Position numbers and translations under genes: made by a program. The notes under the pieces are model-generated. The model did not search any database. It saw only the letters and a list, made by a program, of their open reading frames with translations, and was not told the origin of the DNA. A DNA stretch of 64,000 nucleotides. Source: Xanthostigma xanthostigma. Its lineage: Eukaryota; Arthropoda; Insecta; Raphidioptera; Raphidiidae. Location of the stretch: assembly GCA_963575645.1 (NCBI GenBank), contig OY754475.1:20436509-20500508 (forward strand), read 5' to 3'. The stretch's first letter is position 1; the number at the start of each line of letters is the position of its first letter. Shown in pieces: positions 30,811-54,806 of the stretch.

Positions 30811-32739
30811 TTATTCACCGATATGTACTCTTTTATGAGTATTTAAATTACTCGAACTAGTAAAACACTTACTGCAAACTTTACATCGATATGGTTTTTC
30901 ACCAGTATGCGTCAGTTTATGAATTTTCAAGCTGAGTGTATGTGAAAAACTTTTATTACATATACTGCACTGGTACGGTTTCTCGCCCGTGTGTATACGT
31001 TTATGTCCGGTTAAGTGTGTAATTCTAGAGAACGTTTTATTGCAAACGTCACACCGATGCGGTTTTTCTCCAGTGTGTAGACGTTTGTGCGCATATAAAT
31101 TACTAGAATTTTTAAAGCATTTACTACAGACGTCACATTGAAACGGTTTTTCTCCCGTATGTACAAATTTGTGTTTGTTCAACGTGTGGGTTGTTGTAAA
31201 CGATTTGCTACAAACGTCACACTGATACGGTTTATCGTCTGTATGTTGAAGTTTGTGGCGATTTAAATTACTGGCGTTACTGAAAGACTTGCAACATATG
31301 TCGCACAAGTAAGGTTTCTCTCCAGTGTGTGAGAGTTTGTGGATTTTCAGACTATCAACGTGCGAGAAACTCTTTTCACAAAGGTCACATCTATAAGGCT
31401 TCTCTCCCGTATGAACACGTTTATGTCTTATCATGTGAGTCAATCTTGTAAAGCACTTGTTGCAAATATCACACTGAAACGGTTTCTCGCCGGTATGCAA
31501 TTTTTTATGCGAATTTAAATTGGTAGGATTCGAAAAACACTTGTCGCAAACGTCACATTTGAACGGTTTCTCTCCGGTGTGTAGAATTTTGTGTCGCTTC
31601 ACGTCCGCGGATGTAGTGAAACCTTTGTTGCAAACGTCGCATCGATGCGGTTTTTCGCCGGTATGTTTCAGTTTGTGTCGATTCAATTTACTGGAATCCG
31701 TGAAAGATTTACTACAGACATCGCATAAGTAGGGTTTCTCGCCTGTATGCACACGTTTGTGAATTTTTAACGAATTCGAATGAGTGAATCTTTTGCTGCA
31801 AACCTCACATTGGTACGATTTTGTACCGGTATGCTGTACGATGTGTTTTCTTAAATCAACAGATTTTAAGAAGCATTTGTTACAAATTTCACATTTGTTT
31901 TGTTTTTCCCTGGAGTGAAGCTGTTTGTGCATTTTGAAAAGAGCCAATTCAGTGAAATATTTTTTACAAATGCGGCATCGGTATTTAGATGTCGATGGCT
32001 TGTTGACAGATGTAATATGAGTGTCGCTAAAACAGGATGTTTCGTGATCATCTTTTAAACTTTCACTACTTTCTCTTTTTATATCTTCACTCAGCGTTTC
32101 CGTTATTTCGTCCGTATCAGAATTGAAATTTCGATTTGGAAATTCAAAAATTGAAATTTCCTGATTGATATCCATGCTTTTTTTGTTTTGATTTAAAGAA
32201 TCATCGTCACTATTTATTCCTTGCCAGTTGCAATCTTCCTTCACTGCAGACTGTACTGTGCCCCCACTTTCTAAGGTTTCACATTTTACGTACACCCAAT
32301 TTGGATCTTTTCCACTCGTTTCGTCGTTTTCAGATCCCAAGCCATGTGACCACTGCAAATAGTGGCGTAATGCTTTTTCAGATTCGACCGCCTGCTCTTG
32401 GAAATTACGAATTTCTTTTAGTTGAACGCAGCATGATTTACAAATTGAATTTGGTAAATTATCGTCTTTTGCTATCTGTAATAAATAATTTTTTAATGGC
32501 ATGTCTGTATCGAAGTAATTACACGCGATTTTTTAATAGAAATGACTGCCTTTCGTTATTATTTTACGTATCATTTATATTGTTCTTACCTGTACGGGAG
32601 CACATTTTATAATAACATCTGCTATTTGTTCTTCTAGCTCAGATGAATATGAAAACATATCGGTTAAAATAACATCTTCAGAAAGACACAGTCTACATAT
32701 TTTACTAAAATTATTTCCAGTTATCGTAATATTTCGCAT
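30811..32739 (-). CDS. ZAD12: ZAD-domain C2H2 zinc-finger protein, 14 fingers
   Basis: Exon 1 is 32739-32590 (MRNITITGNN, CRLC, ending IIKCAPVQ) and exon 2 is 32475-30811 (IAKDDNLPNS, CKSCC), about 604 aa, with a 114-nt intron. Exon 1 lies in a frame too short to show up as a long ORF. It was found by looking for the ZAD first half at the expected distance. The exon 2 frame stays open into the intron (an ATG at 32502), which could give a false start without exon 1. The acidic linker (about residues 100-230) includes IKRESSESLKDD. Fourteen fingers follow. Blocks such as TDSSKLNRHKLKHTGEKPHRC and FSHVDSLKIHKLSHTGEKPYLC also occur in ZAD13. Confidence 0.93.
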
Positions 32740-32956
32740 TTTGTTAAATTCTTTACATAATACAGTTGGAAAAAACTAGTTTGATTATTGCGTGTACCTA
32801 CTTATTACGTAACTATTTCATACGAGCTAAATTAATTCTTTTGGTTTTGCCATAAAATAAATAAATTATTATATGTTTATTTAAACTTTAAAAAATAATA
32901 CATCTATATAACATTTTAAAAAAAGCTTGTCAATGACCTGAACGAGTTAAATGACA

Positions 32957-34506
32957 TTATTTTCCATGTATATGTTGTATTTTATGTCTATTCAAATTGC
33001 TGGCATTAGTGAAACTTTTACAACAAATATCACATAAAAACGGCTTTTCACCTGTGTGTGAAAGTTTATGTATTTTCAAACTGTCAGCATGTGAAAAAGT
33101 CTTGTCGCATGTATCGCATTGATAAGGTTTCTCGCCTGTATGGACCCGTTTATGTCTGACCATATGCGTGAATCGCGTAAAACATTTATTGCACACGTCG
33201 CATTTGTGCGGTTTCTCACCAGAATGCAACAGTTTGTGAGCACACAAATTTGCACTCTTGTTGAAACGTTTATAACAAACGTCGCATTCGAACGGTTTTT
33301 CTCCGGTATGTAAAAGTTTGTGTCTGTTGAGACCCGTAGATGTCGTGAAACGCTTGCTGCAAGCTTCACATCGATGCGGTTTCTCGCCGGTATGTTTAAG
33401 TTTGTGTCTATTTAAATTACTCGAATCTGTAAACGATTTGCTGCACACGTCGCATAAATACGGTTTCTCACCGGTATGCATCAGTTTGTGCAGTTTTAAA
33501 GTGTTGGTATGCGAGAAAGTTTTATCACAAATGTCACACTGGTACGGCTTCTCACCAGAATGTTTACGTTTATGAATTTTTAAATTTGCCAGTCTTGTAA
33601 AATGTTTATTGCATACATTACAGCGGTGTACTTTTGTGAATTTAGTTGTTGGGGATGTTACGTTTAAAATAGCAAGACTTCTTACATTTTTATCGGGTGA
33701 TATTTCAGGACTATTTTTAGATTTGCTTGATTTAACTTTATTTGCGCTTTCGTATGTTTTTTGTATCATTTTCATTCGAGTGTCGATTTTTTTTCTAGGT
33801 ATTGCGTTGCTAGCTTCTTTAAAAATACAGATGTTTGGTTTATCTTCAAAATCAAATGAAATAAAATCATTATCGCCAGATTTTCTTACGTCGCTATCGT
33901 CGCCGTGATTTGAATCGTTCCAATTAATAATTTCAGTGTCGCCGTTTTTTGCCGTTTCATATTTAACACACACAATATTTGAATTTAATCTGTTTGTTTT
34001 AACCTCAGAAAATTCCGATGTTTCTAGAACGGATTTTTCTGAACTTAACTCGTTTTCAGATAAGCTTCCTGCACGATTTTTTAAATTATTGTCTATTTTA
34101 GAAGATTCTAGAACAAATGTTTCTAAATCTAACCGTTTATCAGTTGTTAATTGTTCGAGGTAGTCATGAAGTAGCATTTCAGACTTTAACGCCAGTGTTT
34201 GAAATTTTTGAATGGTTGATATTTGAACGTAGCATGCTTTGCAAATCGAATCTGGCAGCTTGTCGTATTTTGTTATTATCTATAAAAGGCAATAGAGAGT
34301 ATGAATATTTAAAAAGTGGCGATTTTAAGTCATTAACAATATTGCTGTTTTTTACTTACATTAACGGGAGCACATCTTATAATTATATCTGCGATTCGCC
34401 CTCCCAATTCCGACGAATACAAAAATATATTGTTTGTAGCACCTTCTGATAGACACAACCTGCATATTTGTTTAAAATGTATGCCCATGAACATTGATTT
34501 ATTCAT
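32957..34506 (-). CDS. ZAD13: ZAD-domain C2H2 zinc-finger protein, 8 fingers
   Basis: Exon 1 is 34506-34360 (MNKSMFMGIH, CRLC; MKYK-MNKS at 34518 is an alternative start) and exon 2 is 34279-32957 (IITKYDKLPD, CKAC), about 489 aa, with an 80-nt intron. Exon 2 starts with one extra isoleucine codon compared with the other genes, unless the acceptor is used three bases further in. The linker is long (about 170 residues) and poor in lysine-glutamate motifs. The eight fingers correspond in order to the middle eight of ZAD12, so one arose from the other by loss or gain of terminal fingers. The last finger ends KIQHIHGK. Confidence 0.92.
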
Positions 34507-34983
34507 TTTATATTTCATTCAATTACAAAATATTTTTTATCTTCAACCTTTGTTTATGAAGTTATACAGTGTGCTTCAAAACGATTATCTTTATTAATAT
34601 CTATATTTTTTAATAGCCGCTAGTGCGCCGGTCCGGCTTCGCTCGATTGGCACCATTGTGTCGTCGACTTACGTTGCAAAATTGGTCTCCACGAAAAGCG
34701 CTTTTATCATATAATATAAAACAATATTAAAACCCAAATTATAATTTTATTGTTAAAAAAAACAAACAACTACAATGATATCATTTATAATTAAGCACTC
34801 ATACTCTTACTATAAATTAATGCATATTATTATTTTTGAATTCAGATAACTTCATAGCTTTGCTTTAAACAATTAATTTTAATTATCACCGATTTTTATA
34901 CAATGTTTTATAATTTACTTGGCCAATATAATTTCCCAGGCTAAAACTAACAAGTGAATTTTTGGTGGACCGTCACAAAATAA
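34507..34983. other. Intergenic region ZAD13-ZAD14
   Basis: Contains dispersed-repeat copy 3 at 34610-34722 (from 'ccgctagtgcgccggtcc' to 'cacgaaaagcgcttttat'). The rest is AT-rich with no gene. Confidence 0.55.
34610..34722 (+). repeat. Dispersed repeat family, copy 3 of 3
   Basis: A truncated copy sharing 'cgacttacgttgcaaaattg' and 'gaaaagcgcttttat' with 27880-27935. Confidence 0.6.
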
Positions 34984-36501
34984 TTATGGCTTATCACTAG
35001 TATGAACTCGTTTATGAGTTTTCAAATGATTCGATTGTTTAAAACATTTGCCACAAACGTCACACTGATAAGGTTTATCGTCAGTATGTTGTAGTTTATG
35101 TCTAATTAAATTGCTGGCGAGGCTGAAACATTTACAACAAATATCGCACAAGTAAGGTTTCTCGCCAGTATGTACCAGTTTATGTCTTTTCAACGTGTTG
35201 CGAATACTGAAACATTTACCACACACGTCGCACCTGTACGGTTTCTGACCGGTGTGTAGAAATTTATGTTTATTCAGCGTGTCGATCGTGGCAAACGGTT
35301 TGTTGCAGACTTCACACTGGATCGGTTTATCGTATGTGTGCTGAAGTTTGTGTCTGTTTAAATCGCTCACCATTCTGAAACACTTACAGCAAATATCGCA
35401 TGTGTGAGGTTTTTCTCCGGTATGTAGCAGTTTGTGACGTTTCAAGTTATCATCACGTCTGAACCTTTTACAGCAAACTTCGCACTGATACGGTTTTTCG
35501 CCAGTGTGAAGTCGTTTGTGCGTTTTTAAGTGAATCGATTGAGTAAAGTTCTTGTTGCAAATATCGCAGTGAAGTGAATTCCTACGTGCGTGTTTCGATT
35601 TTAATGATTTGTTTTTTGAACGGTTCTTTTTACTATCTGCTGTTGACGGCACTGTTTCAGCAGAGCAGTCGACTGTCTCTTGTTTTATACTTTTTGGACT
35701 GAGATTTGCGAAAGTTTCTTCGAAATGAGTTTCAACTAACGTTGCAGGATATTCACATTTCACGACAACGTTGGTGCTAAAATTAGTGTTTTCTTTATTT
35801 GAAGTTGGCATTTTTTCGGTGCTTTTTGTTTCTTTCCAACTGTGATTACTGTCAACGTCGTCGTTATCTTGTTTTATAGAGATGTCTTCTGTTTTGTCGT
35901 CGTGCTTTAACAGTACGCCGTATTGTTCGGAACTGCCGGGGTATAGGCGTTGTAGATAATTTTGCAGGACTCTTTCTGATTGCAGGGCCTTCTTTTGAAA
36001 CCGTTGAACTCTTTCAAGTTCATTGTAACAATGTTTACAGATGAAATTTGGTAATTTATCGTCTCTTGTGACCTGTTTAAAATTAAAAATGCAATTTAAT
36101 CACAATTTCCGTATATACCTTTAGATATACAACAGCTAAGCTGTCGAAATAACATACATTCTAAAATAAAGTTTGGTCTAGTATCTACAGTAAAAATTGT
36201 GTCATATTTTATGTGTACAGTTCATCAACTTATTATACTTTACAATTTCAGTAATAATTAAAATAATATAATAAGAAAATTTTATGACTAATTGATCCGT
36301 ATTACACTAGTTTTAAGATCAAAATAATTTGTGAAGTTTGATTGTACTTACGCACACGGAAGCGCACTTTATAACTACATCCACAATTTGACCACCAAGT
36401 TTTGACGAATGCGAAAATATATCAGTTAAATTTACATCGTCAGTTAGACACAATCTGCACATTTTACTGAGGTCTCCATAACGTACTGTAATTTCCTTCA
36501 T
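34984..36501 (-). CDS. ZAD14: ZAD-domain C2H2 zinc-finger protein, 7 fingers
   Basis: Exon 1 is 36501-36352 (MKEITVRYGD, CRLC) and exon 2 is 36072-34984 (VTRDDKLPNF, CKHC), about 412 aa, with a 279-nt intron. The open frame of exon 2 continues 87 codons above the first internal ATG (35811), up to the acceptor. The linker has VVKCEYPATLVETHFEETF and IKQETVD, as in ZAD3/4/9, followed by a basic KKNRSKNKSLKSKHARR stretch as in ZAD1. Of the seven fingers, two (RMVSDLNRH and SLASNLIRH) are followed by QHT(Y/D)DKP linkers like those of ZAD12. The gene thus looks like a mosaic of subgroup features. Confidence 0.91.
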
Positions 36502-36796
36502 TTTGAATTATTTATTTCTCAAAATAGATATTACTATACTGTTCTTGACTGTATATCGTAAACAAAAAAAGTAATTCATCTTTTTCTATTTCTTTTCAAA
36601 GGATAGGATATACAGAATATGTATATATTTTGATTTTTAGTTGTGTACGAGTGGAACTGAAGGTAATTAAGAGGTAAATTAAATTGAAAATACTGATATT
36701 AATATATTTATTTTCAAATTCCAACAAAAGGTTTTGCTGTTATTGCGGTCTCTTAAACGTTTGTGCTCAAAAGAACAACTCGCCGATAATTTCCGC

Positions 36797-38108
36797 TTAT
36801 TGATTATCCCCAGTATGGACACGTTTATGTGTTTTCAAATGAATCGACTGATTGAAACATTTGCCGCACACATCGCACTGATACGGTTTCTCACCAGTAT
36901 GTACTCGTTTGTGTCTCTTCAACGTGTTGCCGTGACTGAAACACTTGCTGCAAACGTCACATTGGAACGGTTTCTCGCCGGTGTGGACTCGTTTGTGCGC
37001 CTTCAAGTGAACAGATTGCGTGAAACATTTGTTGCAGACTTCACACTGGTACGGATTCTCGTTGTGCTGCACTCGATGCGCATCGTACGTGTCTCGTTTA
37101 GTAAAACACTTGTAACAAACGTCGCACTGGAGTGGTTTCTCGCCTGTGTGCAACAGTTTGTGTTTGTTTAAGTGACTTGACGTCGTATAATACTTGTCGC
37201 AGACGTCGCATTGGTGACGTTTGACACCCGTATGTCGCTGTATATGCGTGTTGAAGTTACTCAGATTTGTAAAACGTTTGTTGCATATTTCACACCGGTA
37301 AGGCTTGTGGCCTGTGTGTAACAGTTTGTGTTGTTTTAGGCTGTTCGAACGCGTAAAACTATTTTTACAGACGTCACACTGATACGGCTTTTTTATGGGG
37401 TTTGCTTGATTTATATCGACAGATGGCGGTGACTTTTGAACGACGTTCTTTCGTTTTGGAAACTTTTTTTTTGTTTTAAACGGTTTAACGGTTTTTACAT
37501 GGTTTCCTTTTTTGACTCGGTTTGAATTATAACCGATATCAACCAGTCGCTCAGTACGTAAGTCAGTTTCAAGCAAATTTTCGGGATATTCGCATTTTAT
37601 AATTGGATCTAAATTTGAAGAAATGTTATTCCGCTCTGTATGGTCTTTTTTTGTTTCTTCCCAGTCGATTTTAACATCATTACTAATTTCTGTATTTACT
37701 CTATTGTTTTCTAAATTACTTTCTACAGAATCACTTGTCTTAAAAAATGTTGGCGCGCAGTCAGATTGTAGTCTGTCAAGATATTGTTGAAGCGTTTTTT
37801 CAGACTGTATTATTTGCAACTGGAATTGGTGAACTCTTTCCAGTTCACGGTAACACATTTTACAAATTGAATTCGGCAGTTGAACGTGTCGTATTATCTA
37901 CAAATATTACGGATTACAGTCGATATTAACCTATCGCAAAACTTACGCATTTACTTACACGAACGGGAGCACATTTTATAACTGCGTCAACTATTCGCTC
38001 TCCCAATTTTGAAGAAAATGTAAATATATCGATGAAATTCATGTCGTCACAAAGACACAGTCGGCAGATTTTACTGAGATCTTTATTGAGCATTGCCATT
38101 TTCTTCAT
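36797..38108 (-). CDS. ZAD15: ZAD-domain C2H2 zinc-finger protein, 7 fingers, 61-nt intron
   Basis: Exon 1 is 38108-37959 (MKKMAMLNKD, CRLC) and exon 2 is 37897-36797 (IIRHVQLPNS, CKMC), about 416 aa. The intron is only 61 nt, the shortest of the array, and still has GTAAGT and AG ends. The linker includes IIKCEYPENLLET and a lysine-rich KTVKPFKTKKKFPKRK block. Seven fingers follow; the fourth (TKRDTYDAHRVQH) has a short linker NENPYQC. It is the last gene of the array and faces the plus-strand LUBEL exons. Confidence 0.91.
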
Positions 38109-39048: not shown

Positions 39049-42000
39049 ATGGTATCGATGCTGAAATGCACCCACTTCTGCTGTCGCGGCTGCGCACGAG
39101 ATTATTTCACGGTCCAGATCACCGATCGAAGCATCACCGACTGCGTGTGTCCGTTCTGCAAGGCTCCGGAACTGACCGACGTCGACGCGAGCGAGGATGA
39201 CATCTCCGAATACTTCGCCAATTTAGACATTCTACTCAAAGCCATCATCGATCCGAACGTGCACGAGCTCTTCCAGCGTAAACTTCGCGATCGTACGCTC
39301 ATGCAAGATCCGAATTTCAAATGGTGTGCACAGGTTTGTAAACAACTCGTTATTGTACTTTCCGAAATTCGTTTTTAGAGAGATAGAGAGAGGTGTCCGA
39401 CCTAACTTTCGATTTCGGCGAGTGTCGGAGTCAAAAGTCTCATACTATGACCGTAACGTGTCGTGGAAAAAATATTCTTTTGACGTGATAACGTCTTATA
39501 AATTGATGAAACACCAGCTGCACGCACGAAAAAGTGTAACGTTCCGCCTGACCCTGTGCGTGCAAGCGAGAGCGCAGTATGCTTCGGCCCAAGTTTGACA
39601 GCTACTAAAATTTAGGTTATGTATTACGGAATACGTTATCACGTAAAACTATCGTCCGTAAACCGACTTTACAATTTTTTTTTTACACTTTGTTGCAGTG
39701 TTCATCTGGATTCATTGCTAATCCACGCCAGAAGCGTTTTGTCTGTCCGGACTGTAAGGCGATCACGTGTGCTGGATGCAGAAAACCGGTGAGTTATTGC
39801 CGCTGTTTTTTATGACTCTATTACAAGCCCTCAGTTCCCACGTTGTAATGCGTGCACTGCTAAAAGTATCGATTATTTTCAATTTGTTATAAAAAAAAAC
39901 AATAGCGTGTGAGATTTTCCCACGCAGGGTCGGTCTGGCAACTAAAAAGTTACCGGGAAAATTGTCGAACGATTGTTCGAAATAAAGTAAATGACTTATC
40001 ATGCCTCTACGTGAAGCGTGTAACTAAGAAAAAAACCCGGACCGGCGGCCTACCGGGAAAAATCCCGGTATTCTCTTAGGCCAGACCGATGCTGTTCCCA
40101 CATAAGCACACGGGCGAAGTGGAACTTCTTTAAGAGTTATGAATTCGTTTCATGTTTAAATAGGTACATTTATTAATTAAATAATATGTTATAATATGGA
40201 ATAAAATGCAAACATTTATTCATTTATTGAATAAATTTAGAAATAAAAATTAAATGGCTTCTTAAAATTAGGTATTTAAGTTTCCATTAAAGATTACCCA
40301 GTAATACTGGCCAGTGCTAATGACGTCATAATTGTACTGGTGAGACAGATTTGAAATAGCATAAATATTTAACCGGGCGTCCGTGCATCAGACTTTGTAA
40401 AATGTTTTAATTTTATTTTTTGTTATTTGCAATAAAGTCTTCTTCAACAAAGTAAACAATTACTTTTGGTGGACGAGGGAAATAATAATTCGTCAACGCG
40501 CGGGCCAGTATATTTAGGAACGAATCAACAATATGGCATCGAATCATGACGTCATTAGCACTGGGTTATATTTTGGAACACACCCTTTATCTATTAATTC
40601 TATAATAACATCTTTTATGCAATATACATCGCAAATAAAATTGAAATTAGTTTTTTTATAATAAATCTGACGGAATCAGGTTTTTGGGCTTTACTTAGTA
40701 TACCTTATAAATTAAACATTAATTAAAATAATGGCTTCATAAGATTAATTAAGTTTTCATGGAGCTATTGATTCTATAATTTACTCGATGAGCCGAGTTG
40801 ACTCGGTGACTCGAGTGCAAGCGGACTCAAGTAAAATTTAAGTTTACTCGAGTACCGAGTTACACAAATGTCAAAACGTGGCTCTAGTCGTATCACTTAT
40901 TCGTATGCATGGAGTTCGTACTCATTGTGTAGCCATTAGTGATGTGCCGGATCGTTAAAAATGTATATCCGCAGATACGGATCTGAATACGGATATTTGG
41001 TTTCAAGATCCGCGGATACGGATACGGATCTTAACTTTCTTAGAGTACGCAACGGTAAATATTGCACATCGACCTTTGGAAAGAGATTATCTGTTATGGC
41101 AAAAAGTTATTGACCTCTTTAAGAGTTAACTCTCATAACAGATTGTCTCTTTCCAAAGATCGATGTGCAATATCTCATTATAAAGATAGTTTTTTAGTAC
41201 CTTTGAGTTATGTACTATTGGTATGGTACTCACTACGATAAATGTTTGCAATATAAAGGTGCCAAATACGATTTAAAAAAATAAAAAATAATCTGAATGG
41301 AATTTAACAGTTTTTCATTATTACCTAATCACCTATATATATAAAATTTCATCTATGAGTTGAAAATTAATAAGGTAAAAGATCCGTAAAAGATCCGCTA
41401 AAAAACTAACGGATACGGATACAGAGCTTTCTTCTCCCTTGTATATCCGCGGATACGGATACGGATATCCGGCACATCACTAGTAGCCATGTATTTGCAC
41501 TAAAGAAGTTTCACTTCAAAAACAATTGCAAATATGAATGACCGAGGTTGTTAGTGACTTTAAAAAAAAAAAACTTACGTTTGTTTTTTTTTTCTTTTAG
41601 TGGGAAATTCAACACGAAGGAATATCGTGCGAGAAATTCGCCGAATGGAAACAGGCCAACGATCCCGACATTCAGGAACTCGGGTTGGCCCAGCACTTGG
41701 CCGACAACGGCATCGACTGTCCCCGTTGCAAGTTCCGCTACAGCTTGGCGCGGGGCGGTTGCATGCACTTCACCTGTTCCCAGTGCAAGTTCGAGTTCTG
41801 CTCTGGTTGCGGCAAACCGTTCAGAATGGGCGCCAAGTGTGGCACGAGTCCGTATTGCGCTAAACTGGGACTCCACGCCCATCATCCGCGCAATTGTTTG
41901 TTCTATCTGAGGGACAAGGAGCCGGGCGAACTCCAGAAACTCTTACAGGTAAATAAGCAATCGTCAATTTGTTTAACACAAAATCGAAGACCTAACTAAA

Positions 42001-45000
42001 TGGTAGTGGAACGAACCAAGCCGTGAATCTTCGCGAAATGTTATTTGCAAGAAAACTCATTTTGAAATTTTTATACTTTCAAATTTTATACAGTGGAACT
42101 AAAAACCTCTGTAACTTAAACATTTTTTGAATTCCCTTCCCCTCAAAGCCTAAAACCTCTATTACTTAAAGCGCAAAACCAAATATTTTGAGCGATGGCC
42201 CTTGAAAACTTAAAATAATATTTTGGTGACCTCCAAAGTATTATCAGTGAGTCATCGTGAATAAGTATACAAACAAAAACTTTTTCCAAGAACTTTATTA
42301 ATTTTCACTATTAGAACAGTCGAACCTTGTTAAGTTAAAAATTGAACTTCGAAAATCTCTCTAACTTCAACTCTCGATAAGTAAAAAACTCGATAACTTA
42401 AATTTCTCAACGTTTCCCTTTAACTTTAATTTACCGAGGTTCTACTGTATTTAATAAAATAAAAAATAAATAATTCGGATCATTTAGTCGGGTCTGAAGT
42501 CTGTCGGTCGGTTATAAAGCTGTCTAATTGTACGTGAGTGCGAGTAAGACGCTACAGGTAGGTTGAAGTGTGAGAGAGCGCAGCACACTTCATCTCAACC
42601 CATACACACTTCCTCACACACTCAACCTACTCGTAGCGTCTTACTCGCAGTCACGTATAATGGACTGAGTTTTTTAACCGCCTGGAAGAATTTTTTTTTT
42701 TTTTTTTTTTATTGAGGAGGAAATGCATTTACGCACACCACGGGAAGATGCCCTAGGTAGTGTGGGACTCGGGCTAAGCCCCATACCCACTAAAACCTCC
42801 TCTATCCCGCTCCATATAATAGAGCCACACTGCCTATAAAAGCAAATACACTATATTGTCGGCAGGGTTTTTTTTTGTTTGTAAATATGTCATTTATTTT
42901 TTGTTTTAGGATCACAACATTGCGTTCGACACGGAGCCGCGGGTCAGCAACAAGTCGAATGATGGAGGACGCGTTCCAAAATGCGCCGTACAACTCCAAC
43001 GCGAGACTCCGGCGGGACTCGTGGATACGGTTTGCAGCAACGAGGTTGAAAATGGACAAGCTGGACTGTGCAGGTCAGACATAACAAAATTATTAAAATC
43101 GGAGATTAGAAAGCGCGACAAATACGGCAACGAATAATTAACAAGCAGGGCCGTAATTCGCTTTTTTGTTGAAAGGTGTACAATTTTTTTAATAAAATGG
43201 GAATTTTTTCTATCTTTCTGAGGTTTCTCTAGGCCCTGTTGCCCTTGCGTAGTTAGGGCTCTGTTAATTATTCTACATTTGTTATTTATTAATACTCGAA
43301 TTATCAAAAAAAGCTATCTATTGCGCAAAGATCTGGAACTCATAGTAGCTAAATATTTCGATTTTTGGCTGCTAGTGACGTCAGATGAAGTGATAGAACG
43401 CATGCGCTGTATAGTTTTGTTGTCATATTCTGTATCTGGAAAATTACCGTTCAAATTATTTACTTTGCCCTCTGTATTCTGTATCCTCGACTAAAAATGT
43501 AGTCAATTTAGACTTATAAAAAACAATTGCATTTACAATTGATCGAAATCCATCTAAAACTATTTTTTTTTATTGCCGCTGTCGTTTCGTAATAAAACCG
43601 TTACAAAATAATGACCGGTTTTGGTTAAGGATACAGAATATGGACACACTGAACTGAAATTAATAAAGAGTGGGACTTAAAAATAAATGGGGGACCGACC
43701 GCAATGCTGGTTATACGGAGTATCAATGTCTTCTAATCTAATACAAGCCCTCGGTTCGACATTTGGAAGCACGATGCTGGATTTCGGCCTCGCTCTCTTG
43801 CTTGATGTCTTGCAGACAGCTTTGCGCGCTGCGCTGCTAGATTGTGGCGTCACTGATTGGTCCGCTGCTCGCTATCTCGCTATATTTGGGTGATATGCTC
43901 AGTGCTATTTTTCATGCAGCGCTGCCTGCTAGTTTGAGATTTTGACCAATTATGGTGTTGTATTTTATCACGTGATATCGTCTGACATTCGTTAAATATG
44001 GTGCTGTTTGAAAAAGTTCCAAGTGAACAGCGATGGGGCCAAAAGTTGTAAAATCAAAATGTAAATGAACTCGACAAGAAATAAGTTTTCGTTTTGATTT
44101 TTCTCTTCTCTCCCGAAGCTTTTCAATCATTAAAGTCATAGTAGCAATTCGTCCATATTTAAATTTTAAATATAACTGTCAACCTAGCAAAACAGCGAGC
44201 AATCAAGCAAGCTACCAACCACCAAGCAGGCTACCATTCATGGCAGCCTGCAAGACTTCAAGCATGCAAGCGAGCTCGAAATCCAGCATCGTGTTAACGG
44301 GCCCTAAAGAATGTTGTTGCATACAGTATGTAAACGCGTAAGGTGCACATAGGGAAATTAGCATTGGGAAAAAATACTTGGATCAGAGTTAGCCATGACT
44401 GCATTAATTGTTATTTCTATTGAATTATCGTGGTAACCTTGAGGATTTCTATTTTATTTTGATTTATTTTTGTTTTACTTGGCTTTTTTAATACTAAAAA
44501 GCTCTTATAAATCATTATTTTATTTTTTTTGTACAAAAATAAAACAAAAAAACAACTCCATCTGTTTGGAAACATTTCATTCAAAAATTGTCTGACCGGT
44601 ATGACGTATGCGCATTGGTAAATCAGTGATCCAAATGTCTTTAGGTTCAACACGAATAGGCGGAGATATTTGATCTCGCACCATATTTAAGTATTTTTTG
44701 GGAATTTAATGTCCCATTAATAAAAAAAGTCCGATTATGTTGTAATCATTTGAATATTTTGTTCGGTAGTATACACATTTATTTTGCAAAAGAATATTAT
44801 CTGTCAAATTGAAAAACAAGATTTCAAAGCTCACTCTGATCCACTCATTTTTTCCCAATGTTAATTTCCCTATGTGCACCTTACGTGTTCACATACTGTA
44901 TATTATTACATTGTTTTTTATGGCCCGTAGCTTTCAGGTTCTAAATTGACAACTGTTGAGTTGCCCGTTCCTTTTTGTCCAGACCCCCTATCTTTTATAA

Positions 45001-46732
45001 GAATAACAGAATATGATGACGTCATTAGAGCGCGTGTCGTTTCTATTCGCTGTTGCAGGAGTCACTATATAGAATATCTGTCGTCGTTGGTGCGCCATTA
45101 CAAAATCGATCCGATCGACGTCTTGTCGAGCGACGACCTTGAGATAGCCGTCCGCCGCGCGGGTCTACGATTGCCGCCCAAACACTACGGCCTTCCCGAT
45201 AACGTCTACCGGCAATCGTTATTACAGGTAACTGCTATTTTCTCTTTTATAGATTGCACTATATTGAATATTTGGTCGCCGTTATCGGAAGACATCGGGT
45301 CGATCCGATTTCAATATTGGACTGTGTCGAAGTCGAACAGGAACTGCGCAGGCGCGGAAAGGTGCTGCCCGATCGTGCGCCCGGTGTCACCGAATTCCAG
45401 TATAGGAATTTGTGCGCTAAGGTATTTCTTTTTTTGTCCGGCGACGAAGAAAAGTGGAATTTTTTCGGTGATCTTGATTTTCAGATTATCGATATCGAAT
45501 TGTTGTTTTTGCATAAATATTGATGTGGCTTTTGGCGACCACGTGACTGCTTTGCTACGCAGTCACATTTACGAAACAGTCGAGTCCATATTTAATTGCG
45601 TTCAAATCGTAGTTTTATCAAAAGTAATCTGTTTTTAACCGACTTCAAAAAAGGAGGAGGTTCTATGTTCAACTGTATATTTTTTTTTATGTATGTTCAC
45701 CGATTTCTCTGTCAATTATGGACCGATTTTCAAAATTCTTTTTTTATTCGAAAGAGTGCACTTCCGACGTGGTCCCATCGGAACCAAGTCAGGATCTGAT
45801 GGTGGAATCCAGAGAAATCGAGGGAAACTCTCAAATTTCAAAGGCACGCATACTTGGCCTACCCATTGCAACACTTTATCTAGCACTAAAAAGAGAAAAA
45901 TAAAATATTTTTAACAAGAAAATTGAACCGACTTCAAAATATGCACTAAAAAATAAAAAATAATAGTTATTGTTATTTTTGGAGTCAGTGTCAGCCAAAA
46001 TGAAATCTATTCCGAGAACTAGAGACATGTAAGATTTAAATTGCTACTTTCGAATTCCGATGTGTCACCGACTCCAAAAATAACAATAATTATTATTTTT
46101 TACTTTTTAGTGCATATTTTGAAGTCGGTTCCAATTTTTTGTTAAAAATATTTTATATTTACAATGAAAATCCGGATTAACTGAACCCGTTTTCTCTGAG
46201 TTGGTACTTTACCTAGATTGTTAATACTAGAAAATTGATCTTAAAATAAAATTCCTACTTATTAAAACAATTAATGAATCATTTACTGTGATTTTCGTTT
46301 GTCAATTGAGATTATTATTTTGTTTTTGTTTATTTTGTACACTGTTTGGAACTTTCTGTTCCGTTGTGTTTATTGTTTTAAATAAATAAATAAATTATGC
46401 TTTTTCTTAATGTATTCATCAGATTTCTCAATCTTTTAACATTCAATTTTCCGGAGCAGTTAAGAAAAGTTACTCAACCCGTTAATCTATTGTTTTATGG
46501 CGTTTTCGGCGTCTAGAACCGCCCCGGGGCAGGTCAGACCGAATGGATTACAATTGGTTATAAACAAATGTCATTAACCAATAGTAACCCATTCGGCCTG
46601 GCCTGCCCCGGGGCGATTCTCGATGTCGAAAACGCCATTAGTTTAAAAATATTACAACGCCATTAGTTTAAAAATATTACAGCGTAATTTTTATTTTTAC
46701 AGATAGTCGTTGAAGAAATACCGCTCGAGTGA
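39049..46732 (+). CDS. LUBEL: LUBEL/HOIP-type linear-ubiquitin E3 ligase, 3' half (RBR and LDD exons)
   Basis: Exons seen: 39049-39333 (rest of RING1: [18 protein letters not shown], up to KWCAQ), 39699-39788 (IBR: CSSGFI, CPDC, CAGC), 41601-41948 (IBR end, and RING2: [20 protein letters not shown]), 42910-43073 (start of the LDD), then either 45059-45227 (exon A) or 45253-45421 (exon B), then 46703-46732 (IVVEEIPLE, stop). All junction phases agree. This RBR ligase passes ubiquitin through a thioester on the RING2 cysteine (the C of ARGGCMH) and makes Met1-linked chains; the LDD positions the acceptor ubiquitin. In flies LUBEL works in IMD/NF-kB signalling. The order of domains and the motif [22 protein letters not shown] match HOIP closely. 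The 5' half (start codon, ubiquitin-binding domains, first RING1 cysteines) is not found nearby. Confidence 0.9.
39481..39663 (+). repeat. Dispersed inverted-repeat element, copy 1 of 3, in LUBEL intron
   Basis: Runs from 'gacgtgataacgtcttataa' through 'gcacgcacgaaaaagtgtaa' to 'acgttatcacgtaaaactat'. Related copies in the opposite orientation lie at about 61330-61458 and 62408-62620. The ends 'acgtgataacgt' / 'acgttatcacgt' are inverted. Non-coding. Confidence 0.65.
39924..40094. mobile_element. Small inverted-repeat element in LUBEL intron
   Basis: The left end 'gcagggtcggtctggc' mirrors the right end 'ggccagaccgatgctg' imperfectly, and 'taccgggaaaa' recurs inside both halves. No coding sequence. 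Confidence 0.5.
40311..40565. mobile_element. MITE-like element in LUBEL intron
   Basis: The ends 'ccagtgctaatgacgtcat' and 'atgacgtcattagcactgg' are perfect inverted repeats of 19 bp. The 255-bp length and lack of ORFs fit a non-autonomous DNA element. Confidence 0.7.
40938..41482. mobile_element. hAT-type non-autonomous element, 545 bp, with 8-bp target duplication
   Basis: Perfect 16-bp terminal inverted repeats (tagtgatgtgccggat / atccggcacatcacta) are flanked on both sides by gtagccat (40930-40937 and 41483-41490). An 8-bp duplication and a short terminal repeat are the hAT signature. Inside, 'gatacggat' type repeats and a second hairpin (about 41057-41180, 'attgcacatcgacctttgga') fold on themselves. 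No transposase. Confidence 0.88.
42091..42447. mobile_element. pogo/Tigger-like MITE (possibly two nested) in LUBEL intron
   Basis: Starts 'cagtggaact' and ends 'ggttctactg', with TA directly on both sides. A second start 'cagtcgaaccttgttaag' lies at 42317, giving an inner 131-bp unit with the same right end. Many 'taacttaaa' strings match the AT-rich ends of this group. Confidence 0.65.
42531..42657. mobile_element. Hairpin element in LUBEL intron
   Basis: The left arm 'gcgagtaagacgctac' and 'aggtaggttga' mirrors the right arm 'tcaacctac' and 'gtagcgtcttactcgc'. The outer bases tacgtga / tcacgta also pair. Non-coding. Confidence 0.65.
42690..42830 (-). mobile_element. 3' end of a poly(A)-tailed retroelement, minus strand
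   Basis: A run of about 20 T at 42690 is followed by a GC-richer block ('acgcacaccacgggaagatg', 'actcgggctaagcc'). Read on the minus strand this is a unique 3' end with a poly(A) tail, as left by non-LTR retrotransposition. Too short for any ORF. Confidence 0.5.
43735..44305. mobile_element. Inverted-repeat element in LUBEL intron
   Basis: 'gcacgatgctggatttcgg' and 'gcttgatgtcttgcag' on the left mirror 'ctgcaagacttcaagc' and 'cgaaatccagcatcgtg' on the right. The arms are about 50 bp with several mismatches. Boundaries are approximate. Confidence 0.55.
44324..44898. mobile_element. Tc1/mariner-type MITE, 575 bp, TA-flanked, in LUBEL intron
   Basis: Left end 'cagtatgtaaacgcgtaagg', right end 'ccttacgtgttcacatactg', with TA immediately outside both. 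The inverted match continues through 'gtgcacatagggaaatta' to 'cattgggaaaaaa', about 50 bp in all. Internal DNA is AT-rich and non-coding. Confidence 0.82.
45059..45227 (+). CDS. LUBEL: LUBEL alternative LDD exon A
   Basis: This 169-nt exon completes the split arginine codon left by the exon ending at 43073 and reads [20 protein letters not shown] onward to VYRQSLLQ, ending in phase 0 at a GTAACT donor. Joined to 46703 it gives [13 protein letters not shown], which fits the C-terminus of the HOIP LDD. The acceptor is tgttgcag. Confidence 0.85.
45253..45421 (+). CDS. LUBEL: LUBEL alternative LDD exon B
   Basis: Also 169 nt and of the same start and end phase as exon A. It reads [20 protein letters not shown] onward to FQYRNLCAK. 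By eye about 19 of 56 aligned residues are the same as in exon A, with HYIEYL, DPI and RR.G conserved. Acceptor ttttatag, donor GTATTT. It starts only 25 nt after exon A. An A-to-B splice would put TGA in frame at the fifth codon, so the two are expected to be used one at a time. Confidence 0.8.
45634..46145. repeat. Lepidopteran 'accgacttcaaaa' repeat, with an internal inverted segment, in LUBEL intron
   Basis: Begins 'aaccgacttcaaaaaaggag', continues with 'tatgttcaccgatttctctg' and ends with 'attttgaagtcggttcc'. 'aaccgacttcaaaatatgca' at 45932 and 'tgcatattttgaagtcggtt' at 46112 are inverted to each other. I recognise the opening block as a very common interspersed sequence of moths and butterflies. 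It separates exon B from the last LUBEL exon. Confidence 0.7.
46496..46640. mobile_element. GC-rich hairpin MITE before the last LUBEL exon
   Basis: The left arm 'tggcgttttcggcgt' and 'gccccggggcaggtcag' mirrors the right arm 'ggcctgccccggggc' and 'cgaaaacgcca'. It is followed by a 25-bp direct duplication ('cgccattagtttaaaaatat') at about 46633-46682, only about 20 bp before the acceptor at 46702. Confidence 0.75.
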
Positions 46733-49464: not shown

Positions 49465-49780
49465 CAATAAAGTTATATAAGGATGTTATATAATAATGTT
49501 ATATAATGATGTTATATAATAATGTTACATAATATAAGGATGTTACATAATGATGTTATATAATAATGTTACATAATGATGTTATATATAACAATGTAAG
49601 ACAGTAACAATGTTATATAATGTAAGACAGTAACAATGTTATATAATGTAAGACAGTAACAATGTTATATAATGTAAGACAGTAACAATGTTATATAATG
49701 TAAGACAGTAACAATGTTATATAATGTAAGACAGTAACAATGTTATATAATGTAAGACAGTAACAATGTTATATAACAAT
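49465..49780. repeat. AT-rich minisatellite leading into the 8-bp satellite
   Basis: An irregular part (49465-49596) of 'gttatataatgat' type units is followed by seven regular 26-bp units of 'taagacagtaacaatgttat' plus 'ataatg' at 49597-49780. Each unit contains TAAGACAG, the reverse complement of the neighbouring satellite unit CTGTCTTA. Confidence 0.92.
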
Positions 49781-52700
49781 CTTACTGTCTTACTGTCTTA
49801 CTGTCTTACTGTCTTACTGTCTTACTGTCTTACTGTCTTACTGTCTTACTGTCTTACTGTCTTACTGTCTTACTGTCTTACTGTCTTACTGTCTTACTGT
49901 CTTACTGTCTTACTGTCTTACTGTCTTACTGTCTTACTGTCTTACTGTCTTACTGTCTTACTGTCTTACTGTCTTACTGTCTTACTGTCTTACTGTCTTA
50001 CTGTCTTACTGTCTTACTGTCTTACTGTCTTACTGTCTTACTGTCTTACTGTCTTACTGTCTTACTGTCTTACTGTCTTACTGTCTTACTGTCTTACTGT
50101 CTTACTGTCTTACTGTCTTACTGTCTTACTGTCTTACTGTCTTACTGTCTTACTGTCTTACTGTCTTACTGTCTTACTGTCTTACTGTCTTACTGTCTTA
50201 CTGTCTTACTGTCTTACTGTCTTACTGTCTTACTGTCTTACTGTCTTACTGTCTTACTGTCTTACTGTCTTACTGTCTTACTGTCTTACTGTCTTACTGT
50301 CTTACTGTCTTACTGTCTTACTGTCTTACTGTCTTACTGTCTTACTGTCTTACTGTCTTACTGTCTTACTGTCTTACTGTCTTACTGTCTTACTGTCTTA
50401 CTGTCTTACTGTCTTACTGTCTTACTGTCTTACTGTCTTACTGTCTTACTGTCTTACTGTCTTACTGTCTTACTGTCTTACTGTCTTACTGTCTTACTGT
50501 CTTACTGTCTTACTGTCTTACTGTCTTACTGTCTTACTGTCTTACTGTCTTACTGTCTTACTGTCTTACTGTCTTACTGTCTTACTGTCTTACTGTCTTA
50601 CTGTCTTACTGTCTTACTGTCTTACTGTCTTACTGTCTTACTGTCTTACTGTCTTACTGTCTTACTGTCTTACTGTCTTACTGTCTTACTGTCTTACTGT
50701 CTTACTGTCTTACTGTCTTACTGTCTTACTGTCTTACTGTCTTACTGTCTTACTGTCTTACTGTCTTACTGTCTTACTGTCTTACTGTCTTACTGTCTTA
50801 CTGTCTTACTGTCTTACTGTCTTACTGTCTTACTGTCTTACTGTCTTACTGTCTTACTGTCTTACTGTCTTACTGTCTTACTGTCTTACTGTCTTACTGT
50901 CTTACTGTCTTACTGTCTTACTGTCTTACTGTCTTACTGTCTTACTGTCTTACTGTCTTACTGTCTTACTGTCTTACTGTCTTACTGTCTTACTGTCTTA
51001 CTGTCTTACTGTCTTACTGTCTTACTGTCTTACTGTCTTACTGTCTTACTGTCTTACTGTCTTACTGTCTTACTGTCTTACTGTCTTACTGTCTTACTGT
51101 CTTACTGTCTTACTGTCTTACTGTCTTACTGTCTTACTGTCTTACTGTCTTACTGTCTTACTGTCTTACTGTCTTACTGTCTTACTGTCTTACTGTCTTA
51201 CTGTCTTACTGTCTTACTGTCTTACTGTCTTACTGTCTTACTGTCTTACTGTCTTACTGTCTTACTGTCTTACTGTCTTACTGTCTTACTGTCTTACTGT
51301 CTTACTGTCTTACTGTCTTACTGTCTTACTGTCTTACTGTCTTACTGTCTTACTGTCTTACTGTCTTACTGTCTTACTGTCTTACTGTCTTACTGTCTTA
51401 CTGTCTTACTGTCTTACTGTCTTACTGTCTTACTGTCTTACTGTCTTACTGTCTTACTGTCTTACTGTCTTACTGTCTTACTGTCTTACTGTCTTACTGT
51501 CTTACTGTCTTACTGTCTTACTGTCTTACTGTCTTACTGTCTTACTGTCTTACTGTCTTACTGTCTTACTGTCTTACTGTCTTACTGTCTTACTGTCTTA
51601 CTGTCTTACTGTCTTACTGTCTTACTGTCTTACTGTCTTACTGTCTTACTGTCTTACTGTCTTACTGTCTTACTGTCTTACTGTCTTACTGTCTTACTGT
51701 CTTACTGTCTTACTGTCTTACTGTCTTACTGTCTTACTGTCTTACTGTCTTACTGTCTTACTGTCTTACTGTCTTACTGTCTTACTGTCTTACTGTCTTA
51801 CTGTCTTACTGTCTTACTGTCTTACTGTCTTACTGTCTTACTGTCTTACTGTCTTACTGTCTTACTGTCTTACTGTCTTACTGTCTTACTGTCTTACTGT
51901 CTTACTGTCTTACTGTCTTACTGTCTTACTGTCTTACTGTCTTACTGTCTTACTGTCTTACTGTCTTACTGTCTTACTGTCTTACTGTCTTACTGTCTTA
52001 CTGTCTTACTGTCTTACTGTCTTACTGTCTTACTGTCTTACTGTCTTACTGTCTTACTGTCTTACTGTCTTACTGTCTTACTGTCTTACTGTCTTACTGT
52101 CTTACTGTCTTACTGTCTTACTGTCTTACTGTCTTACTGTCTTACTGTCTTACTGTCTTACTGTCTTACTGTCTTACTGTCTTACTGTCTTACTGTCTTA
52201 CTGTCTTACTGTCTTACTGTCTTACTGTCTTACTGTCTTACTGTCTTACTGTCTTACTGTCTTACTGTCTTACTGTCTTACTGTCTTACTGTCTTACTGT
52301 CTTACTGTCTTACTGTCTTACTGTCTTACTGTCTTACTGTCTTACTGTCTTACTGTCTTACTGTCTTACTGTCTTACTGTCTTACTGTCTTACTGTCTTA
52401 CTGTCTTACTGTCTTACTGTCTTACTGTCTTACTGTCTTACTGTCTTACTGTCTTACTGTCTTACTGTCTTACTGTCTTACTGTCTTACTGTCTTACTGT
52501 CTTACTGTCTTACTGTCTTACTGTCTTACTGTCTTACTGTCTTACTGTCTTACTGTCTTACTGTCTTACTGTCTTACTGTCTTACTGTCTTACTGTCTTA
52601 CTGTCTTACTGTCTTACTGTCTTACTGTCTTACTGTCTTACTGTCTTACTGTCTTACTGTCTTACTGTCTTACTGTCTTACTGTCTTACTGTCTTACTGT

Positions 52701-54806
52701 CTTACTGTCTTACTGTCTTACTGTCTTACTGTCTTACTGTCTTACTGTCTTACTGTCTTACTGTCTTACTGTCTTACTGTCTTACTGTCTTACTGTCTTA
52801 CTGTCTTACTGTCTTACTGTCTTACTGTCTTACTGTCTTACTGTCTTACTGTCTTACTGTCTTACTGTCTTACTGTCTTACTGTCTTACTGTCTTACTGT
52901 CTTACTGTCTTACTGTCTTACTGTCTTACTGTCTTACTGTCTTACTGTCTTACTGTCTTACTGTCTTACTGTCTTACTGTCTTACTGTCTTACTGTCTTA
53001 CTGTCTTACTGTCTTACTGTCTTACTGTCTTACTGTCTTACTGTCTTACTGTCTTACTGTCTTACTGTCTTACTGTCTTACTGTCTTACTGTCTTACTGT
53101 CTTACTGTCTTACTGTCTTACTGTCTTACTGTCTTACTGTCTTACTGTCTTACTGTCTTACTGTCTTACTGTCTTACTGTCTTACTGTCTTACTGTCTTA
53201 CTGTCTTACTGTCTTACTGTCTTACTGTCTTACTGTCTTACTGTCTTACTGTCTTACTGTCTTACTGTCTTACTGTCTTACTGTCTTACTGTCTTACTGT
53301 CTTACTGTCTTACTGTCTTACTGTCTTACTGTCTTACTGTCTTACTGTCTTACTGTCTTACTGTCTTACTGTCTTACTGTCTTACTGTCTTACTGTCTTA
53401 CTGTCTTACTGTCTTACTGTCTTACTGTCTTACTGTCTTACTGTCTTACTGTCTTACTGTCTTACTGTCTTACTGTCTTACTGTCTTACTGTCTTACTGT
53501 CTTACTGTCTTACTGTCTTACTGTCTTACTGTCTTACTGTCTTACTGTCTTACTGTCTTACTGTCTTACTGTCTTACTGTCTTACTGTCTTACTGTCTTA
53601 CTGTCTTACTGTCTTACTGTCTTACTGTCTTACTGTCTTACTGTCTTACTGTCTTACTGTCTTACTGTCTTACTGTCTTACTGTCTTACTGTCTTACTGT
53701 CTTACTGTCTTACTGTCTTACTGTCTTACTGTCTTACTGTCTTACTGTCTTACTGTCTTACTGTCTTACTGTCTTACTGTCTTACTGTCTTACTGTCTTA
53801 CTGTCTTACTGTCTTACTGTCTTACTGTCTTACTGTCTTACTGTCTTACTGTCTTACTGTCTTACTGTCTTACTGTCTTACTGTCTTACTGTCTTACTGT
53901 CTTACTGTCTTACTGTCTTACTGTCTTACTGTCTTACTGTCTTACTGTCTTACTGTCTTACTGTCTTACTGTCTTACTGTCTTACTGTCTTACTGTCTTA
54001 CTGTCTTACTGTCTTACTGTCTTACTGTCTTACTGTCTTACTGTCTTACTGTCTTACTGTCTTACTGTCTTACTGTCTTACTGTCTTACTGTCTTACTGT
54101 CTTACTGTCTTACTGTCTTACTGTCTTACTGTCTTACTGTCTTACTGTCTTACTGTCTTACTGTCTTACTGTCTTACTGTCTTACTGTCTTACTGTCTTA
54201 CTGTCTTACTGTCTTACTGTCTTACTGTCTTACTGTCTTACTGTCTTACTGTCTTACTGTCTTACTGTCTTACTGTCTTACTGTCTTACTGTCTTACTGT
54301 CTTACTGTCTTACTGTCTTACTGTCTTACTGTCTTACTGTCTTACTGTCTTACTGTCTTACTGTCTTACTGTCTTACTGTCTTACTGTCTTACTGTCTTA
54401 CTGTCTTACTGTCTTACTGTCTTACTGTCTTACTGTCTTACTGTCTTACTGTCTTACTGTCTTACTGTCTTACTGTCTTACTGTCTTACTGTCTTACTGT
54501 CTTACTGTCTTACTGTCTTACTGTCTTACTGTCTTACTGTCTTACTGTCTTACTGTCTTACTGTCTTACTGTCTTACTGTCTTACTGTCTTACTGTCTTA
54601 CTGTCTTACTGTCTTACTGTCTTACTGTCTTACTGTCTTACTGTCTTACTGTCTTACTGTCTTACTGTCTTACTGTCTTACTGTCTTACTGTCTTACTGT
54701 CTTACTGTCTTACTGTCTTACTGTCTTACTGTCTTACTGTCTTACTGTCTTACTGTCTTACTGTCTTACTGTCTTACTGTCTTACTGTCTTACTGTCTTA
54801 CTGTCT
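49781..54806. repeat. Satellite array (CTTACTGT)n, about 5.03 kb and 628 units
   Basis: An 8-bp unit is repeated without any interruption that I can see over the whole stretch. Since 8 is not a multiple of 3, the three plus-strand frames are the same and all open, giving a false 1,700-residue ORF (repeating LLSYCLTV). The minus strand has TAA every 24 nt. The complete homogeneity points to very recent expansion or continuing slippage or unequal exchange. The true length in the animal may differ from the assembly. Confidence 0.97.

Follow-up and report, generated by a model that had tools for sequence, protein, structure and literature searches.

A putative mutually exclusive exon pair in the LDD of a HOIP/LUBEL-type ubiquitin ligase gene

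The ligase gene and its surroundings

The 64-kb stretch of DNA analysed here (the window) carries on its + strand the 3' part of a LUBEL/HOIP gene, the visible exons of which start in the middle of RING1 at 39049. The features on which the following analysis turns are these:

39049..39333, + strand: LUBEL/HOIP exon running from the second half of RING1 to the start of the IBR, phase 0, with an open frame and AG/GT borders
39699..39788, + strand: LUBEL/HOIP exon encoding part of the IBR, with an open frame and AG/GT borders
41601..41948, + strand: constant exon encoding RING2 and the start of the LDD, equivalent to HOIP 832-947, with 71 of 115 aligned residues identical to HOIP
42910..43073, + strand: constant exon U, LDD, approximately HOIP 948-999, with 23 of 51 aligned residues identical to HOIP
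45059..45227, + strand: alternative exon A, equivalent to HOIP 1000-1055, 1 nt plus 56 codons, assigned by alignment, PF18091 and frame
45228..45252, + strand: spacer of 25 nt containing the A donor (GTAACT) and the B polypyrimidine tract and acceptor, as read from the splice signals
45253..45421, + strand: alternative exon B, equivalent to HOIP 1000-1055, 1 nt plus 56 codons, assigned by alignment, PF18091 and frame
46703..46732, + strand: last coding exon, IVVEEIPLE and stop, common to both forms and corresponding to KLTEEVPL of HOIP (4 of 8 identical)

The product spliced from these visible exons is 361 residues long and open to the stop whether A or B is used. The best PDB relative of the 236-residue part that starts at 41601 is human RNF31 (HOIP), with E-values of 1.8e-69 for the form containing A and 2.6e-68 for that containing B. 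Both forms score above the Pfam cut-off for PF22191 and PF01485, which are IBR models, and for PF18091 (E3_UbLigase_RBR), which represents the LDD. A PF18091 profile search of the animal's own genome identified this locus only, with three matches (the constant part, A and B) among five candidates. Compared with human HOIP, the one species used as partner for the exon blocks, the exon at 41601-41948 keeps the equivalents of the catalytic Cys and His (CMHF) and of R935/D936 (YLRD). By its IBR, RING2 and LDD, and by these conserved catalytic and acceptor residues, all of which are shared with human HOIP, the gene is identified from its sequence as a HOIP/LUBEL-type ligase, and Met1 chain formation is predicted. 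It is to the LDD that HOIP owes its Met1 specificity.

Genes for C2H2 zinc-finger proteins (named by eye) are clustered 5' of the ligase gene, and perhaps inside one of its introns, on the - strand of the window at 1000-38100, with long zinc-finger frames at 30811-37897 and 84-nt tandem repeats of zinc-finger kind further left. At window positions 49780-54806 an array of the 8-mer TCTTACTG extends over 5 kb, with approximately 628 copies and 100% matches. Both introns flanking the A/B pair contain long imperfect hairpins, at 44306-44916 (93 nt, 84% complementary), 45896-46160 (98 nt, 92%) and 46497-46638 (64 nt, 88%). We would guess that these are MITE-like insertions, and they could influence splice choice.

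The first-pass annotation had treated the DNA as lepidopteran, which is doubtful in view of a mitochondrial gene order that is trnI-trnQ-trnM and not M-I-Q. On the mitochondrial contig (C28), of which the first 9,000 of 17,745 bases were scanned, ARAGORN in mitochondrial mode places trnI, trnQ (minus strand) and trnM in that order before ND2, and trnL is found between COI and COII. Both arrangements are typical of insects and crustaceans, and the order in ditrysian Lepidoptera is M-I-Q. The mitochondrial mode lists 18 genes, some of which (His, Arg and an extra Lys) are probably false, and the bacterial mode reports tRNA-Gln only on the same DNA. Fragments of COX1 occur at C6:1195571-1196020 (with two TAA and three TGA) and at C2:16906869-16907126 (with one TGA), and are probably nuclear copies of mitochondrial DNA.

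Anatomy of the exon pair and selection on its two copies

Exons A and B are each 169 nt long, have GT/AG borders and the same start and end phases, and are separated by a gap of 25 nt; the coordinates, lengths, borders and phases proposed in the first-pass annotation are all confirmed. Exon U ends in 2 nt of a split codon, which A and B each complete at their 5' ends before finishing on a full codon. Either exon joins 42910-43073 upstream and 46703-46732 downstream, and both joins are open. Inclusion of both exons (U, A, B, last) produces the in-frame TGA that had been claimed, with the stop after IALY, and skipping of both (U, last) produces a stop after LCR. The pair thus has the near-equal length, the compatible splice sites and frame, and the sequence similarity by which mutually exclusive tandem exons are recognized in the available sections of an earlier study (BMC Bioinformatics 2011; PMC3228551).

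Such an arrangement stands alone in the window, where 171 frames of the form YAG-169 nt-GT occur over both strands; 12 of these are open at that phase, and A and B are the sole open pair no more than 60 nt apart. A search of the 623-Mb genome with exon A found two places among two first-look candidates, namely A itself and B. Viral contigs, scanned with A alone, gave 26 pattern matches, none of which is a relative. Duplication by assembly error or between haplotypes is ruled out by the nucleotide identity between the two exons, which is 74/169.

Both exons are homologous to the same LDD segment, as the first reading of the sequence had proposed. Each aligns without gaps to the 56 residues of HOIP 1000-1055, with 19 identities for A and 17 for B and with 12 positions common to all three, and each passes the PF18091 profile. 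With the last exon attached the scores are 31.0 bits for A and 34.1 bits for B against a cut-off of 23, the match spanning the first 33 residues of each exon, at which point the model ends. The two proteins are identical to each other at 19/56 positions, a divergence about the same as that of each from human HOIP. Their ungapped BLOSUM62 score of 95 exceeds the mean of 20,000 shuffles by 9.1 sd, and the best shuffle reached 17.

The codon positions differ in how well they have been preserved. Positions 1, 2 and 3 are identical between A and B in 21, 35 and 18 of 56 codons respectively, values that were reached in 644, 0 and 3,660 of 20,000 codon shuffles, and the difference between positions 2 and 3 gives a Fisher p of 0.0023. 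Since position 2 is far above random and position 3 near random, both copies seem to have been kept for the protein they encode; in an unselected copy the second-position identity should, over that time, also have gone. We infer that both copies have been maintained for what they encode.

It is distinctly unlikely, in our judgment, that a single exon is in use and that the other is a duplication relic, whether silent or occasionally recognized. The one feature that would suit such an account is that A ends in LLQ, as HOIP does, and B does not. Against it, both A and B are open, with intact borders and unchanged length, when an unselected 56-codon frame is expected to stay open in only some 6-7% of cases, and the pattern of second and third codon positions just described is not that of a decaying copy. 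B even scores slightly above A on the LDD profile. Furthermore, the HOIP residues kept by one copy only number 7 in A and 5 in B, and because these are balanced neither copy looks degenerate. The proposal that the LDD of this HOIP/LUBEL ligase is encoded in part by mutually exclusive exons is well supported by the combination of their predicted anatomy and apparent selection.

Splice signals and the exclusion mechanism

The spacer, GTAACTGCTATTTTCTCTTTTATAG, carries both the A donor and the B pyrimidine tract. Measured against a 9-position consensus, the A donor matches at 8/9 positions and the B donor at 7/9, the gene's other donors scoring 7 or 8. The acceptor tract of B has 14/16 pyrimidines, which places it second among the gene's seven visible acceptors, and that of A has 12/16. 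Adenines occur in the spacer at +3, +4, +10, +22 and +24 only, and since those at +22 and +24 are too close to the acceptor, a usable branch site for B should lie before the A donor or at most 10 nt past it. The best-scoring branch-like motifs by position weights are CCGAT and ATAAC, 54 and 51 nt upstream of B and inside exon A. They nevertheless seem poor branches for B because the first AG downstream of either is the end of A itself (45226-45227). By the same weights GTAAC, 22 nt upstream, scores lower; it comprises spacer bases 1-5 and so coincides with the A donor, and is one candidate among several for the B branch site. The motif CTATT was also considered and was dropped, its branch position being a T.

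In human extracts donor and branch must be about 50 nt apart, and assembly fails at 35 nt, according to the accessible portion of PMC6692369. The part of PMC7969005 available to us applies this threshold to OGDH exons 4a/4b as well. Both the OGDH pair and the exclusive pair of alpha-tropomyosin (cited in PMC6692369) resemble A and B in that the donor-branch distance is too short for joint use. They are not identical cases, since the OGDH intron is described as 118-131 nt long in birds and mammals, and it is the branch points alone that sit near the donor (PMC7969005), whereas in the present gene A and B are separated by 25 nt in all. A spacer of this size would put the B branch below the minimum distance from the A donor, as in steric exclusion of the tropomyosin type, with the threshold taken from human systems. 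Because the donor-branch spacing is so far below that limit, A is not plausibly spliced to B.

These signals suggest the following sequence of events. One LDD exon would have been duplicated in tandem long ago, giving rise to A and B. The 25-nt spacer would hold the A donor together with the branch site, polypyrimidine tract and acceptor of B, so that U1 and U2AF/U2 would compete for the same nucleotides. Binding of U1 to the A donor and of U2AF/U2 to the B acceptor should then exclude each other, a steric block by which A could not be joined to B. The reading frame would serve as backup, as double inclusion and double skipping would both run into stops. We consider it highly probable that an old tandem exon duplication in this LUBEL/HOIP gene results in productive mRNA containing exactly one of A and B, and A and B are very likely a mutually exclusive pair. 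Frame and spacing predict one exon per transcript, with the exception of a form that retains the spacer.

In that form A, the 25 nt and B remain unspliced as a single exon of 363 nt. Its frame is open through the spacer and B and runs into a stop by the fourth base of the last exon, yielding an A-type LDD followed by an unrelated, frame-shifted tail of 65 residues. The transcript may escape decay, its stop being in the last coding exon, and because this frame is open strict exclusivity is not enforced by the sequence alone. The A acceptor and the B donor could, moreover, pair by exon definition. That the 363-nt exon is what the gene has been keeping, alone or as a third form, is nonetheless highly improbable. 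Such a transcript would give up both the conserved EEIPL end and the frame in which B reads like HOIP, it leaves unexplained why B is under selection in that frame, and its 56-codon opening in a second frame would arise by chance at the same rate of about 6-7% given above. Equally improbable is that B (or A) serves as an alternative terminal exon and has a poly(A) site of its own, for although read-through of B is open for 33 codons past its donor, that donor is a good one (7/9) and the shared last exon continues the HOIP homology.

Consequences of the exon choice for the LDD

In HOIP numbering Cys885/His887 and R935/D936 fall in the constant exon 41601-41948. An assignment of R935/D936 to the PRD/PRN of HHPRDCLF is ruled out by the HOIP numbering, and they correspond instead to the conserved RD of YLRD. 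The equivalents of Cys969, Cys986 and Cys998, the three Cys of the CCCH set, are in exon U (42910-43073), and His1001 falls on residue 2 in A and in B alike, so the final His of the set is supplied by either exon. We take these four residues to be the LDD zinc ligands, which fits their conserved spacing. Structure modelling of both forms had been suggested as a check; single-exon models of A and B, which are of low confidence, contain helices only, in the same places, forming a three-helix stretch. Because the models are purely helical, the beta-hairpin of the LDD is probably outside the pair.

These positions can be set beside what the accessible parts of the HOIP literature report. R935 and D936 contact the acceptor ubiquitin, and their alanine mutants lose activity (PMC7125101); the equivalent fly residues are also important (PMC5090701). 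The beta-hairpin of the HOIP LDD touches the donor tail (PMC5413910), and S1066, just beyond the 1000-1055 segment, is well away from either ubiquitin (PMC12441119). The acceptor's helix is also contacted at its base by the LDD taken as a whole, through residues that are left unnamed in the text available (PMC5135002).

The first-pass suggestion that splicing switches the acceptor-binding surface is the weaker part of the proposal, R935/D936 being located in the constant exon and the predicted helix layout being the same in A and B. The swapped segment is best read as scaffold and outer surface, and an influence on acceptor presentation is possible. It seems rather unlikely, if not to the degree of the relic account above, that one gene produces two ligases whose LDDs present the acceptor differently (in rate, in the type of acceptor or in the fidelity of linkage) and that tissue or immune challenge regulates which of them is made. 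The two proteins would be alike in RING1-IBR-RING2, in R935/D936 and in most of the LDD zinc finger, and unlike towards the end of the LDD. The swap would most likely tune LDD stability, activity or partner binding, and not Met1 linkage.

Isoform diversity is already known for this ligase. For Drosophila LUBEL (CG11321), the available text of one study describes seven polypeptides, three of them without UBA2 or RBR (PMC5090701), and that of another nine mRNA variants, with the RBR in 4/7 isoforms (PMC6462001). We found no alternative LDD exon in these isoform descriptions, in so far as the two papers were accessible, and the partly available reviews on HOIP and linear ubiquitin mention no LDD variants. 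A mutually exclusive LUBEL/HOIP exon was likewise not found in a limited and partly accessible library on these ligases, and a report elsewhere is possible. The host of the present pair is a HOIP/LUBEL ligase, and CG11321 is absent from the main text of the study of mutually exclusive tandem exons (PMC3228551). Mutually exclusive exons are well known as a kind, and no report of them in this domain of a linear-ubiquitin ligase was found in the literature consulted.

The animal may therefore make two forms of its ligase that differ in part of the catalytic region. If the pair is used, it would constitute a ready-made natural swap experiment for learning which LDD parts determine activity and specificity, and splicing would be an added layer of control over linear ubiquitin in arthropod immunity or stress.
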